A stretch of 48,153 nt of DNA from Minisyncoccota bacterium (GTDB lineage Bacteria > Patescibacteriota > Minisyncoccia > Phycocordibacterales > CAJBRS01), in NCBI GenBank assembly GCA_017881075.1, contig JADGRH010000006.1, positions 1 through 48,153 of the forward strand. The letters run 5' to 3'. This document shows, piece by piece, positions 31,350-47,769 of this stretch. The stretch's first letter is position 1; each line of letters begins with the position of its first letter. The position numbers and the translations under genes were made by a program. The notes under the pieces were generated by a model, which saw only the letters and a list, made by a program, of their open reading frames with translations, searched no databases and had not been told where the DNA came from.

Positions 31350-31376
31350 GCTCGCCGCTTCGCGGCGAGCATTTTA
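31350..31376 (+). terminator. Rho-independent terminator
   Basis: GCTCGCCGC-TTC-GCGGCGAGC then ATTTTAATTT. Confidence 0.75.
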
Positions 31377-31925
31377 ATTTAAAAGATACTGAAATATTTC
31401 TTCATGAGTTTTTCCAAAATCATCCGAGAGATCAAAGTACTTAAGATTATATTGGGCACACTCATTTTTAATGTATTTACTATACTGAATCATTTGGTCG
31501 ATCATCTCTAGTAAAGCTTTATCATTGTGATTATCTGTCCAATCAATCTCTTGCTTGAAAGACCTAATTGTTCCTAATTTCTCTTCCGGTGTCATATCAA
31601 CATATCCGACAAAACAGGCTTTTGTTTGATTGGGATATTCTTTTAACATCTCAGCTGCTTGTTCTGGTAAAATCGCATCCCCTTCGACTAAGAAATTATC
31701 TTCTTCTTCTATAAAATAACCAAATAAAACTTTCGTGAATTTCCACAATTTTTTGGATTTCTCGATAAAGGGCACATCATGATTTATTTTGTATTCCGGA
31801 GCACTTTGAGACAGCACTCCGATCAAAGCATCGGTAGGAAAATACGAGATCTGTTTTTCTTTCAACATTTTTTTGGCTAAAATAGATTTTCCCGCACGAG
31901 GGGCGCCTCCTAATATGTATAGCAT
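31374..31925 (-). CDS. P-loop kinase-like protein
   Basis: Walker A 'GGAPRAGKS' at the N-terminus. Confidence 0.6.
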   Translation of the reverse strand: MLYILGGAPRAGKSILAKKMLKEKQISYFPTDALIGVLSQSAPEYKINHDVPFIEKSKKLWKFTKVLFGYFIEEEDNFLVEGDAILPEQAAEMLKEYPNQTKACFVGYVDMTPEEKLGTIRSFKQEIDWTDNHNDKALLEMIDQMIQYSKYIKNECAQYNLKYFDLSDDFGKTHEEIFQYLLN

Positions 31926-31937
31926 CTTAAAATAAGA

Positions 31938-34900
31938 TCAATCTTTTATTTTTAATTTGAAAACCAGATTATCGACCTTGATTTCTTCCCCATCGGTCTT
32001 TGTAAATTTAATTTCTTTCAATCCAGCAATTTTAGAAATCTCTTCCTTGAATTTATTTATCAGGGCTTCTCCTCCGCTCGCCACCTCAACGGCGAGCGAC
32101 GCTTTTTCTCCCATCTGCAATCCAGAAGTTTTACGTAGCTCCTGAATGGCGCGGATGAGTTCACGCACTTGCCCTTCTTCTTTTAATTGTGGAGTTATTT
32201 CGATGTTGAGTTCAATTTCCTTGTCAATACTTGCGTCAAGTATCGCTTCTTTTACATTCACTTCGTCTTTGATTAATTCCAGATAATCGGCATTTTCTGA
32301 AATATCGGATTCATCTGTCCTAAATTTTAGTTCGGCAAGTGGCTGACGAACCTTTATCCCCTCTTTGGCTCGCGCCTCAAGTCCTAATGAGACGATCTTT
32401 CTGACTTCTTCCATTTCTTTAAGCAAGCTGTCAGCTGATAGCTTATAGCTTATAGCTTTTGGTAGAGGCCATGACTCTAAGTGAACACTCTCTTTGTCAT
32501 TACCGACTTTCACCCTCTGATATATATCTTCAGCCAAAAACGGCATAAATGGAGCGATCAATTTCGATAATTCTTCTAAAACAAATCGTATAGTGGAAAG
32601 AGCTGCTTGCTTATCTGTCTCGTTATCACTCTTAAATCGATCACGAGAACGGCGCAAATACCAAGTGGAAAGATCGTCTACAAATTTATCGAGTGGAGCT
32701 AATGCTCGATAGATTTCATAGTTATTCATTCCTTCAGTGACCTGCATTACCACTTCATTCAAGCGCGCGATTATCCATTGATCCAAAATATTTTTACTTT
32801 CAACTCTTAGAATTCCAATCTTAGAACCTTTGTATAATTCATAAAAAGACACCACATTTTTCAACCGAAGTATAATTTTCTTATTAACCTCATCAACACT
32901 CTTTTCCGAAAAATTAATATCTTCTGCTTTCATAATGGGCGATGAAAACAGATAGAAACGGACAGCATCCACACTATATTTATTAAAAAGAATCCAAGGG
33001 TCAGGAAAATTACCTTTTGATTTAGACATCTTTTGACCATCACCTCCTAGAACATTGCCAGTTGTCACCACATTCTGAAAAGGAATACTATCAAATAGAA
33101 TAGTGGAGACAGTATGCATGTAATAGAACCATGTCCGAGTTTGAGCGATATATTCCGCCACGAATTGAGCCGGAAAATTTTCCTTGAACCACTCCTTATT
33201 CTCAAAAGGATAGTGTTTTTGAGCAAAAGGCATGGAGCCGGACTCAAACCAACCGTCTAAAACTTCTTTTACTCGTTTCATCTCTCCCCCGCAAACACAT
33301 TCAAACCGAACATCATCAATGTACGGTCGGTGATAATCGAGTTCGTAATTTTCATTGTGAGGAAAAGCAGCAAAAAGAAGTTCTGATGTTTCTCCATTTC
33401 GGATTGGAGTCTTCCAGTCAGGCGAAGCTGCCAAGACTTCAGGACTTTCGCCAGTACTACCTGATTGGAGACTATAGATTGTATCTTCATGGCTAACAAT
33501 TAAGATATTTTTATTTTGATACTTTTGATCGATATCAAAGAGAAAATCCATGGTTCGCTTCCTAACATCCATCAAATCTTCGCCTCCTTTAGGTTTTTTA
33601 TAAAAATAATCGACAGAGCTACCGTGAAAATCTAGATACTCGTTTAATTTTTTGCCTTCAAATTCTCCAACACTTATTTCTCTAAGCCTCTTATCATAAT
33701 TAATTTCTCCGTGGAAGCTCGTTTCCTTTTTTATTATCTCCGCAGTCTCCCGAGTACGCACAAAGTCTGATGAAAAGATGAGGTCAATTTTTTCCTTTTT
33801 TAATGCTCGAGCGGCTTCTTTTATTTCTTCCCTTCCTTTTTCGGTCAAACCGTGCGGATTGGTATAGACGGTACTGATGGTATTGGCGGCATTATTAATG
33901 CTTTCTCCGTGACGAATAGCCCAATACTTATTTCGCTTAGTGTGTTTCTTGATATCGTCTAGAGAGCCAACAGCTTCGATTTTGCCGCACTTTTCACATT
34001 TCCAAATCGGTAGAGGCGAGGCCCAATAACGATTGCGGGAAATATTCCAATCCGGCGCGCCTTCGGCACTTTTGCCAAAACGGCCATATTTTAAATGCTC
34101 GGGTACCCAATGAATTTTCTCATTCAATTTTAGGAATTTTTTCTTGCTCTTTTGGATATCAATAAACCATGCCGGAATAGCATAGTAGTAAAGAGGTGTA
34201 TCGCAACGGAAACAGTGAGGATAGGCGTGAACAATTTTTTCTTTGGCAAAAAGAGTTCCCTCATGAGCTAATTTTTTAATAATTAAAATATCGGCTGATT
34301 GATGAGCTTGTCCTGAGCTTGTCGAAGGATCCCCTTTTGGCTTCACTGGAATAGCGACAAAATCTGTTACTGCTTCCGTAAACTTCCCAGACTGATCAAC
34401 GTGATGGATCCATGGAATATTTTCCTTCTTGGCTAATTCCATATCTTCCTCACCATATCCGGGCGCAACATGAACGATACCAGTACCTTCGTTCGTGGTA
34501 ATAAAATCTCCGGCATAGATCTTCCAAGCATTTTTTTTATGATCAAGCTTAGCCTCCTTAAAATAATTAAATATTGGTTGATATGATTTGCCGACAAGTT
34601 TCTTTCCTTTAATTTCTTCAATTATTTTGTAATTCTCTTTAAGAACTTTGTCTGCTAGGTCTTTAGCAACAATATAATTGACCCCGTCTTTCTCCGCTTT
34701 GACATAGGATATCTTGGAATCAACCGCTAGAGCAAAGTTGCCCGGCAAAGTCCACGGAGTAGTAGTCCAGGCGAGAACGTAAGTGTTTGGTTCATCAAGC
34801 AACTGGAATTTGGCGTAAACCGAAATATCAGTAATGTCTTTATAGCTCTGATCCATGGCTATCTCGGAATTGGACACTGGCGTCTCACATCGCGGACAAT

Positions 34901-35459
34901 ACGGCAGAACCTTTGTGCTCTCATAGACTAATCCTTTGTCATAGATCTGCTTGAAAGCCCAGATCGTGGATTCAATAAAAGTGTTATCCATCGTCTTGTA
35001 GGAACCATCAAAATCAACCCAGCGTCCCATTCTCTCTATGGTTTTTTTCCATTCATGAACATATTCAAGAACCTTACTTCTGGCATAAGCATTGAATTTT
35101 TCAACACCATAGGCTTCGATCTCTTTTTTGCCGGAGATTTTCAGATCTTTCTCAACAATATTCTCGATTGGCAAACCGTGGCAATCCCAACCCCAGCGCC
35201 GCTCGACGTGCTTACCTCTCATACTTTGGTAACGTGGCACAGCATCTTTAATAGCACTGGCTAAAATATGACCATAATGAGGCAGCCCTGTCGCAAACGG
35301 CGGACCATCATAAAATACAAAATTGCCGCCTGGCGCATCTTTTGCCAAGCTTTTTTCAAAAATTTGATGGTCTTGCCAAAATTTCAGAATCTCCTCTTCC
35401 CTCTTGGCAAGATCACTTTTTATTCCGCCAGAGGCGGGGTTTCCCTCATTTAAAGCCAT
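31938..35459 (-). CDS. ileS: Isoleucyl-tRNA synthetase with inserted histidine-phosphatase domain
   Basis: 1173 aa; 'PPFATGLPHYGHILASAIKD' (HIGH-like), 'GDGQKMSKSKGNFPDP' (KMSKS); extra ~195 aa between GSLDDIKK and DYHRPYIDDVRF. Confidence 0.95.
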   Translation of the reverse strand: MALNEGNPASGGIKSDLAKREEEILKFWQDHQIFEKSLAKDAPGGNFVFYDGPPFATGLPHYGHILASAIKDAVPRYQSMRGKHVERRWGWDCHGLPIENIVEKDLKISGKKEIEAYGVEKFNAYARSKVLEYVHEWKKTIERMGRWVDFDGSYKTMDNTFIESTIWAFKQIYDKGLVYESTKVLPYCPRCETPVSNSEIAMDQSYKDITDISVYAKFQLLDEPNTYVLAWTTTPWTLPGNFALAVDSKISYVKAEKDGVNYIVAKDLADKVLKENYKIIEEIKGKKLVGKSYQPIFNYFKEAKLDHKKNAWKIYAGDFITTNEGTGIVHVAPGYGEEDMELAKKENIPWIHHVDQSGKFTEAVTDFVAIPVKPKGDPSTSSGQAHQSADILIIKKLAHEGTLFAKEKIVHAYPHCFRCDTPLYYYAIPAWFIDIQKSKKKFLKLNEKIHWVPEHLKYGRFGKSAEGAPDWNISRNRYWASPLPIWKCEKCGKIEAVGSLDDIKKHTKRNKYWAIRHGESINNAANTISTVYTNPHGLTEKGREEIKEAARALKKEKIDLIFSSDFVRTRETAEIIKKETSFHGEINYDKRLREISVGEFEGKKLNEYLDFHGSSVDYFYKKPKGGEDLMDVRKRTMDFLFDIDQKYQNKNILIVSHEDTIYSLQSGSTGESPEVLAASPDWKTPIRNGETSELLFAAFPHNENYELDYHRPYIDDVRFECVCGGEMKRVKEVLDGWFESGSMPFAQKHYPFENKEWFKENFPAQFVAEYIAQTRTWFYYMHTVSTILFDSIPFQNVVTTGNVLGGDGQKMSKSKGNFPDPWILFNKYSVDAVRFYLFSSPIMKAEDINFSEKSVDEVNKKIILRLKNVVSFYELYKGSKIGILRVESKNILDQWIIARLNEVVMQVTEGMNNYEIYRALAPLDKFVDDLSTWYLRRSRDRFKSDNETDKQAALSTIRFVLEELSKLIAPFMPFLAEDIYQRVKVGNDKESVHLESWPLPKAISYKLSADSLLKEMEEVRKIVSLGLEARAKEGIKVRQPLAELKFRTDESDISENADYLELIKDEVNVKEAILDASIDKEIELNIEITPQLKEEGQVRELIRAIQELRKTSGLQMGEKASLAVEVASGGEALINKFKEEISKIAGLKEIKFTKTDGEEIKVDNLVFKLKIKD
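33350..33935 (-). other. Histidine phosphatase (phosphoglycerate-mutase-like) domain embedded within ileS
   Basis: 'YWAIRHGESINNAANT...GLTEKGREEIKEAARALKKEKIDLIFSSDFVRTRETAEII...LREISVGEFEGKKLNEY...ILIVSHEDTI'; RHGE codons at 33903-33914. Confidence 0.9.
34304..34331. repeat. REP-like palindromic repeat inserted in frame in ileS
   Basis: GAGCTTGTCCTGAGCTTGTCGAAGGATC, translated on the minus strand as DPSTSSGQA. Confidence 0.75.
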
Positions 35460-35473
35460 GTATTAAAAGGATA

Positions 35474-37201
35474 TCACATCTTTTCCGGTACTTGGATGCC
35501 GAGTAGATAAAGACCATTTTTGAGAATAACGGAGACAGCCGATGTTAGTGCCAGACGATATTTTGAATTATCGTCTTTGGGATCAATGATGTGGGTATTG
35601 GCGTAAAAAGCGTTGAAGGCGGCAGCAACTTCGGTGAGGTAGGTAGTGAGGTGATGGGGTTCACATTCATTTAGAGAGCGGTCGACAATAGAGGGGAAAC
35701 GATAGAGGAGGCGCTCTAAATTTGTAACCTCACCCCCACCCTCTCCTTGAAGAAAAGGAGAGGGAGAAGGCGCCATCCCCTCTTCCTTTGCTTTTCGTAA
35801 AACAGACTCTGCTCGCGTATTGGCGTACTGAAGATACGGCCCCGAATCCCCTTCAAATGAAAGAGATTTTTCAATATCAAAAATAATATCCTTGCCCGTT
35901 TTTTGTTTCAGAATGGAATATTTGATTGCCCCTATCGAAACCATTTCTGCTACATTCTTTCTTTCTTCTTGCAAAAAATCCCGATCTTTCATCTTCTCCT
36001 CGGCTCTCTTCTTCGTTTCTTCAAGAAGAGATTCGGCAGTGACTATCTGTCCTGTGCGAGAGGACATTTTACCAGAAGGTAGGCGTAGCATGCCGTGCGA
36101 AATATGTTTGGTCTTATCCGCTAACTTCGGATTAGTAAATCCAAGAGCTTTCAAAAGCACTTTGAAATATTCATTAATCTCATTCGCAGTAACAACAATA
36201 GAAAGATCGTATGGAAATACTTCATATTTCATTTCGGCCAGAGCCAATTCTTTTGCCTCATATGTAGGCAGTCCCTGACTATTAATGAATACTCGAGTAT
36301 GCAGGCCGGATTTTGATTCAGGAAAAACAATGGCTCCGTCACTTTCTTCAAAGACTTTTTTATCCAAGAATCTATTGACTAATTCCTGTCCGCGCGGCGC
36401 AGCCGCGCTTTCAAAGAAATATTGATCAAATTTAGTGCCAAGTTTTTGATAGATCTCTTCAAAATATTCTAGGCTCCATTCACGCCCTTTATCATAGAGA
36501 TCATTCACTTCCGCATCGCTTCTATCGTAGATTTTTTGATTTATTTTCTTCACTTCGGCATCGTCGGCCAAAGCTTCCTTGTGTCGTGTGGCCCCCAAGG
36601 CATAAGCCTCCCCTAGATATTTGATCTTCTCGGATAAGGTCGCCGCTTCCCCCGGAAACGACTTATCCATAAGCCGAATGCCCCAAATGGTAAGAGCCAC
36701 ATGCCTGCCGACATCACCTTGATAGCAAACTCTTTTTACCTCTGCACCGGCAAAACCAATGATTCGGGAGATTGATTCGCCAATAGTATTACTCATTAAA
36801 TGACCAATATGGAATTGCTTGAATGGATTGGGATCGGTATATTCAACCAGAATAAGCTTACCTTTCAGTGTTTCGTTTCGGCCGAAATTCTCCGACTTCT
36901 GGAGAATTTCGGCCACACTCTCGGCAAAGAATTTTGGCGATAGATAAAAATTAATAAAACCCATTCCGGCCACTTCTACTTTTGAAATTTCCGGCGGAAG
37001 CTTTTCATTTATCTTCCCCACAATCTCAACTGCAAGAGATAAGGGTTCCCTTTTTAATTTCTTACCCAGAACCAGGGCGATATTCGAAGAATAATCCCCA
37101 TGAGTTAGATCGTCGGGATATTCCAATTGAATGTTGTCGGCCTCAAGATTTAGGCTTCGCAAGGAATCTTCAATCAAAGTCTTTAGTTTTTCCACTGCCA
37201 T
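35474..37201 (-). CDS. argS: Arginyl-tRNA synthetase
   Basis: 'LVEYTDPNPFKQFHIGHLMSNTIGESISRI', 'LQYANTRAESVLRKA'. Confidence 0.95.
   Translation of the reverse strand: MAVEKLKTLIEDSLRSLNLEADNIQLEYPDDLTHGDYSSNIALVLGKKLKREPLSLAVEIVGKINEKLPPEISKVEVAGMGFINFYLSPKFFAESVAEILQKSENFGRNETLKGKLILVEYTDPNPFKQFHIGHLMSNTIGESISRIIGFAGAEVKRVCYQGDVGRHVALTIWGIRLMDKSFPGEAATLSEKIKYLGEAYALGATRHKEALADDAEVKKINQKIYDRSDAEVNDLYDKGREWSLEYFEEIYQKLGTKFDQYFFESAAAPRGQELVNRFLDKKVFEESDGAIVFPESKSGLHTRVFINSQGLPTYEAKELALAEMKYEVFPYDLSIVVTANEINEYFKVLLKALGFTNPKLADKTKHISHGMLRLPSGKMSSRTGQIVTAESLLEETKKRAEEKMKDRDFLQEERKNVAEMVSIGAIKYSILKQKTGKDIIFDIEKSLSFEGDSGPYLQYANTRAESVLRKAKEEGMAPSPSPFLQGEGGGEVTNLERLLYRFPSIVDRSLNECEPHHLTTYLTEVAAAFNAFYANTHIIDPKDDNSKYRLALTSAVSVILKNGLYLLGIQVPEKM
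35739..35764. repeat. Inverted repeat in frame in argS
   Basis: CCCTCTCCTT-GAAGAA-AAGGAGAGGG, translated as PSPSPFLQGEGGGEV. Confidence 0.8.
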
Positions 37202-47070: not shown

Positions 47071-47769
47071 CTAAATTTTTTCTTCTGTTTCTATACGACC
47101 ATAATCGTTCCAGACAACAAGATTCCAGCCGAGATTGGCTCGGGGCTCCTCCAGCCTTTTCCACTTCCACCATCCGATCTCGTCTTGCTCGTAAGTGCAG
47201 AGAGTGATACCGGCATTTTCGAGCGGATTAAGAAAAGTGAACTTGGCTAAATGAGAAGAGGTTAATTTCTCACCGAGTTCAATAAAACTGGCTACTGTAC
47301 GCAAGAAAATGTGATGAGTGACGCAGAGAATGCGACTCTCCGAACGATTTTCTAAAAAACGTAGTAGTGCACGCGCCCGATCTTTCAAATCGTCAAAATT
47401 TTCTTCATCCGAGTAGCGAAGGGCGTTGGTGTGAAAACTACGATCGATGCGATCAAGAATGTTTGCTACTTCCGGATCTTCGGAGGGTCGACCAATGATC
47501 TCCTTAGGGTTGCGTCGTTCGGCCAATAAGTCCGAGAGGATGAGCGGCGCATGGATCCTCTCGGAAATGATCTGCGCCGTCTCCTCAGCGCGGGTAAACG
47601 GACTGGCAATAATGATATCCACTGGAATATTAACAAAACGCTCGGCCACGAAGAGCGCCTGCTCGCGGCCGAGCGCACTTAAATGTCCCTCCGCCCCTTG
47701 ACGAATATTTCGAGCATTCAATTCGCTCTCTCCATGCCGAACAAAATAGATTTGTTTCTTCTTTATCAT
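47071..47769 (-). CDS. Histidine phosphatase family protein
   Basis: 'IYFVRHGESELNARNIRQGAEGHLSALGREQALFVAERF...ITHH'-type signature with RHGE and late His motif 'CVTHHIFLRT'. Confidence 0.9.
   Translation of the reverse strand: MIKKKQIYFVRHGESELNARNIRQGAEGHLSALGREQALFVAERFVNIPVDIIIASPFTRAEETAQIISERIHAPLILSDLLAERRNPKEIIGRPSEDPEVANILDRIDRSFHTNALRYSDEENFDDLKDRARALLRFLENRSESRILCVTHHIFLRTVASFIELGEKLTSSHLAKFTFLNPLENAGITLCTYEQDEIGWWKWKRLEEPRANLGWNLVVWNDYGRIETEEKI

Follow-up and report, generated by a model that had tools for sequence, protein, structure and literature searches.

The locus described here raises the question of what a histidine phosphatase (HP) domain is doing inside an isoleucyl-tRNA synthetase (IleRS). 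The window, i.e. the whole stretch of 48,153 nucleotides that was analysed, carries on its minus strand (as for all window features given below) an open reading frame of 1173 amino acids at 31938..35459, the translation of which contains no internal stop. The frame is assigned to a type 2-like IleRS on the basis of its match to the NCBIfam ileS model TIGR00392 (854.9 bits for a cut-off of 621.4), the class I HxGH motif, present as HYGH at residues 61-64 (35268..35279) with a nearly invariant H64, the KMSKS motif at residues 810-814 (33018..33032) and an anticodon-binding domain (PF08264) at residues 893-1041. By sequence, its body is closest to the type 2 or eukaryote-like enzymes and not to type 1, scoring 760 bits against IleRS2 and 277 bits against IleRS1 of P. 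megaterium. The type 2 enzyme (PDB 8c8u, 8c8v, 8c9d; PMC10485003) is the best match of the body in both sequence and fold, is the best solved fold for the whole protein, and likewise displays HxGH, KMSKS, the CP1 region and the zinc knuckle. The TIGR00392 match is broken into two pieces, as is that of Pfam tRNA-synt_1, with His_Phos_1 found between the latter at residues 513-674 (112.7 bits for a cut-off of 21.7). An HP domain inside an uninterrupted 1173-residue IleRS had been proposed in a preliminary description, together with a profile scan for His_Phos_1 as a check, and is borne out by both the translation and the Pfam scan.

The alignment to P. megaterium IleRS2 breaks at residue 508 of the query (479 of the chain) and restarts at residue 705 (484 of the chain), in agreement with the earlier statement that the two flanks are nearly contiguous in ordinary IleRSs. 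About 196 residues replace here the approximately five found in other IleRSs, four in the case of P. megaterium IleRS2, which is devoid of any phosphatase. The N-terminal part of the enzyme (residues 1-509, 33933..35459) comprises the first catalytic half, the CP1 editing region and the first half of the zinc knuckle, CEKC (residues 488-491, 33987..33998). The C-terminal part (residues 706-1173 and the stop codon, 31938..33344) begins shortly before the second half of the knuckle, CVC (residues 721-723, 33291..33299), and the insert is located between these halves, in the context WKCEKC and FECVC. Many IleRSs have kept the insert but lost the zinc-knuckle cysteines flanking the site (L014, L036, L040, L048 and others). 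Going by the domain ranges of IleRS2, where residues 513-632 form the second part of the catalytic core (PMC10485003), the insert falls in the connective region, some 30 residues ahead of that part. This position would suit a phosphatase that removes a phosphate or pyrophosphate from the 3' end of the synthetase-bound tRNA after damage or modification by a toxin. The remainder of the case for such a caretaker role is drawn by analogy from general knowledge; no tRNA-specific features were seen and a restriction to isoleucine and valine enzymes, described below, would not be expected, which makes this role improbable.

HPs split phosphomonoesters via a phosphohistidine intermediate, a chemistry established for the family. 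The insert covers residues 510-705 (33345..33932), including a conserved C-terminal linker FPHNxxYE; the span of 33350-33935 given previously correctly placed an HP there, with boundaries that are now refined, and all the HP motifs then quoted are present. The alignment of 89 inserts, taking in single, tandem and other-class copies, contains only six fully occupied invariant columns, namely R516, H517, S564, R568, E594 and H657, for a median column conservation of 0.42 (42%). Five of these residues make up the HP catalytic set (R, H, R, E, H), the sixth being a serine. R516 and H517, invariant in 89/89 inserts, belong to the RHG motif (residues 516-518, 33906..33914), followed by the second catalytic arginine R568 (33756..33758), the catalytic acid E594 (33678..33680) and the second catalytic histidine H657 (33489..33491). 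The catalytic set is kept even in three members of the order whose cap is shortened by about 30 residues. The linker PHNxxYE connects the HP to the IleRS, with P700 found in 48/54 sequences; standalone HP copies lack it and most of them terminate near GELRKL.

The predicted structure is consistent with these observations. The AlphaFold model of the whole protein displays a pLDDT of 89.4 and a pTM of 0.82, and the insert, the separate folding of which had been proposed as a point to check by structure prediction, is predicted to form a compact unit (pLDDT of 96.5 when modelled alone) sitting in the zinc-knuckle loop. The closest solved relative of this unit, in sequence and in fold (TM-score of 0.78 to 1h2e), is PhoE of Geobacillus stearothermophilus (PDB 1h2e, 1ebb), a broad-range phosphatase sharing the same catalytic set. 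PhoE is however free-standing and only 26% identical, whereas the insert is embedded in a synthetase and extended by a C-terminal linker. The next solved folds are the mycobacterial hydrolase 6s2q, of the glucosyl-3-phosphoglycerate phosphatase family, followed by PspA. The phosphoserine phosphatase PspA and the alpha-ribazole phosphatase CobC belong to the same superfamily and are the next-best solved relatives; the corresponding NCBIfam cut-offs are missed by the insert (62.7 bits for 350 and 78.9 for 162.9, respectively). Taken on PF00300, the catalytic residues and the modelled fold, the insert is assigned to branch 1 of the histidine phosphatase superfamily and appears to be a complete, apparently active PhoE-like HP. 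The closest pair compared (L149, L150) yields a dN of 0.064 and a dS of 1.64 for the insert and a dN of 0.111 and a dS of 1.39 for the remainder of the gene, a ratio indicating that the insert is under purifying selection; in some more distant pairs, the insert diverges faster than the IleRS body.

The family assignment brings up the glycolytic phosphoglycerate mutases, as dPGM_arch is among the top non-synthetase NCBIfam models with 82 bits. This score is however far below the cut-off of 225, and the source genome (97% complete) encodes neither enolase nor iPGM. Since the insert persists there nevertheless, a glycolytic mutase fused to IleRS is refuted for the source genome. About half of 30 relatives from the order also lack enolase, and the relatives that do possess iPGM carry the insert too, so that the likelihood of a mutase role is negligible.

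The same insertion point, for which a survey of relatives had been proposed, is widely used. In the order, 59 relatives were searched and the site was readable in 58 proteins, counting that of the window; 53 of the 58 carry an insert at the same site. In four members (L061, L062, L064, L065) the site is empty, with about 10 residues, and, in one further IleRS, the contig end falls within the insert. At the class level, at least 239 of 384 genomes match a profile of the region (E < 1e-60), essentially the whole profile being covered in one long frame among the matches listed, and at least 8 additional genomes contain inserts that are diverged, shortened or cut by a contig end. Among 180 genomes from elsewhere in the phylum, about 17 have the insert. 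The named bearers include Wolfebacteria, Nomurabacteria, Yanofskybacteria, Kerfeldbacteria and Peregrinibacteria. None of the named matches from other phyla has an insert in IleRS, save one titled Spirochaetia (L070), which looks like a mislabelled Patescibacterium. The names of the bearers suggest that the window derives from a Patescibacterium, probably of the class Paceibacteria. Some members of the class have neither an insert nor a neighbouring HP, and the function is therefore dispensable.

This distribution rules out a chimeric assembly, the same insert being present in hundreds of genomes, and a dead structural spacer is ruled out by the invariant catalytic residues and the low dN/dS. 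No support was found for either explanation and, taken together, they retain scarcely any likelihood. The preliminary description had regarded a lack of the insert in all close relatives, combined with degenerate catalytic residues, as evidence against a genuine domain; most of the relatives carry the insert and the residues are intact.

The class also contains the two proteins as separate genes. A standalone HP is encoded directly upstream of ileS in 19 insert-free genomes from 8 families, comprising a first set of 11 loci (L185-L192, L195-L197) and a second set of 8 (L257, L258, L264-L269). The HP gene shares a 4-nucleotide stop/start overlap with ileS in 5 of the first 11. The gene order is argS-HP-ileS, followed by recO in several cases, and matches the neighbourhood of the window, where argS (35474..37201), assigned by Pfam and neighbourhood comparison, lies directly upstream of the fused ileS. 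In family f99, the HP is found roughly 0.5 to 1.8 kb upstream of ileS. In the HP tree, all 11 adjacent copies tested belong to the clade of the inserts (83 rows, SH-aLRT 95), where they are nested within those of the class. In the tree of the IleRS bodies, fusion, adjacency and absence are interleaved, which implies repeated conversions or transfers. Because genomes without the insert often have an HP just upstream of ileS, HP and IleRS are very probably working partners. Two of these loci (L257, L258) have kept the HP beside a strongly diverged type of IleRS (L257:2634-5450 and L258:1391-4138), the HxGH region of which reads NNPMGVHHAWGR.

Other genes were noted close to ileS. An HD-domain, ppGpp-hydrolase-like frame is located between the standalone HP and ileS in one genome (G099, L193:2045-2548). 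Outside the Patescibacteria, an HP gene begins a few nucleotides past the ileS stop in Urinicoccus massiliensis (L135:2660-6367), a closeness that may reflect chance or a wider association. In the window, a P-loop kinase-like protein without Pfam match is encoded directly downstream of ileS (31374-31925). Some relatives of the HPs act upon proteins, and the insert could in principle dephosphorylate IleRS, ValRS or a partner protein. No conserved kinase partner accompanies ileS, however; the P-loop kinase-like gene was rejected as a partner, being absent beside ileS in the other loci, and a regulatory role is highly improbable.

HPs were also found in a second synthetase. Nine valyl-tRNA synthetases (ValRS; L222, L223, L224, L225, L259-L262 and L275) contain an HP insert in the equivalent zinc-knuckle loop, originating from other HP lineages than the IleRS insert. 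The ValRS of L222 contains two copies and the insert of L223 has lost the second histidine. Three genomes (G475, G425, G110) have an HP in both IleRS and ValRS. Within IleRS, tandem HPs, two per protein, are found in a Peregrinibacteria-like family (L217-L220, L083, L086), L221 carries an HP at a different site, and a second HP type (8 rows, SH-aLRT 99) occupies the usual site while being scattered over the IleRS body tree, for which an exchange of cassettes would be the simplest reading of the trees. The hypothesis that all IleRS inserts share one origin is not rejected at the 0.05 level (AU p = 0.057). Multiple captures within IleRS are therefore suggested, not proven; the inserts of ValRS, the tandem arrangement and the copy at a different site in L221 point the same way.

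As a specificity control, 83 genomes of the class were scanned with Pfam PF00300, a query free of synthetase sequence. An HP was detected in 55 frames longer than 700 residues, 54 being IleRSs and one a ValRS, as identified from coordinates, frame length or sequence and not annotated one by one. At E <= 1e-10, 28 of these genomes have no HP other than the IleRS insert, and 17 have none. One frame of 486 residues (G102, L277:1222-2679) is a fusion of a mutase-type HP to a pyruvate kinase-like domain. In another fusion, an HP is joined to a C-terminal part resembling a family 2 glycosyltransferase (G381, L270:1784-3514), possibly a glucosyl-3-phosphoglycerate synthase/phosphatase fusion. The second, standalone HP reported earlier at 47071-47769 of the window is real (98.1 bits with Pfam). 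The tie to the insert implied at that time is not supported, however: in the HP tree, this protein is of a different lineage and groups with other standalone HPs, and its gene overlaps that of a VTT-PAP2 protein, near folD.

These counts bear on the main rival explanation, according to which a housekeeping phosphatase, e.g. for nucleotide or sugar-phosphate salvage, is simply carried by a highly expressed IleRS, the loop being merely permissive to insertion and the place in the operon a matter of expression only. Out of 83 genomes, 28 indeed have no HP found besides the embedded copy, the site is shared by different HP lineages and the solved structures closest to the insert are those of broad-range phosphatases; the variety of lineages at one site fits a broad substrate as well as a merely tolerant loop. 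The domain nevertheless recurs in IleRS and ValRS and not in other large proteins, and the pairing of HP and ileS survives both unfused and with very diverged IleRSs (L257, L258). Passive carriage, together with its corollaries on loop and operon, is on balance rather unlikely.

The explanation favored here is that the insert is probably an active phosphatase coupled to the charging of isoleucine and valine, as suggested by sequence comparisons and structural models; both its activity and the connection of its substrate with this charging are inferred. The earlier proposal of a phosphatase acting on a product or an analogue of the synthetase reaction stands as regards a complete, phosphomonoesterase-type HP with conserved residues, and its functional tie to the synthetase is reinforced by the HP genes neighbouring ileS and by the ValRS inserts; the hydrolysis itself remains a proposal. 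A folded and catalytically active PhoE-type HP would work with IleRS and, by separate acquisitions, with ValRS, eliminating a phosphate monoester formed at the synthetase or close to it. In the course of their heavy proofreading, isoleucyl and valyl synthetases turn an excess of ATP into AMP and PPi. The candidate substrate would be 5'-AMP, a by-product made in excess during proofreading by editing synthetases, which would be converted to adenosine and phosphate via a phosphohistidine on H517, the removal of this product pulling charging forward. AMP is common to all synthetases, and leucyl-tRNA synthetase (LeuRS) edits too; the recurrence of HP covers IleRS and ValRS only and was not seen in LeuRS. 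AMP is therefore the leading guess but a weakly held one, although a restriction to editing enzymes fits. AMP excess is a standard, diagnostic measure of IleRS editing (PMC4861432). The conversion of AMP to adenosine would seem wasteful for a cell with a small biosynthetic capacity. In broader terms, it is plausible, if somewhat short of probable, that Patescibacteria repeatedly recruited HPs into or beside their isoleucyl and valyl synthetases, where the target would be a product or substrate of charging or proofreading.

No description of an HP in IleRS or in any other synthetase was found in the open-licence PMC papers. A precedent in name for an enzyme domain on IleRS is provided by NCBIfam NF040702, an IleRS with an N-acetyltransferase (GNAT) domain; the appended enzyme is a different one, and the IleRS of the window scores 289.4 bits for a cut-off of 1999. 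Both domains were already known; the novelty lies in their arrangement, its extension throughout the class, the occurrence of HP and ileS as a pair of separate genes and the parallel cases in ValRS. Few enzymes are as conserved as the synthetases, and the Patescibacteria, tiny uncultured bacteria, reduce their genomes severely; most of this huge class nevertheless keeps an active-looking HP in IleRS. Its recurrence over several HP lineages, two synthetases and an unfused pair points to a step in the charging of isoleucine and valine that has been missed. If phosphatase-coupled aminoacylation is true, it would represent a hitherto undescribed enzymatic activity of synthetases. Should the domain be only a hitch-hiker, it would still constitute a striking class-wide architecture, which annotation pipelines label simply as ileS.
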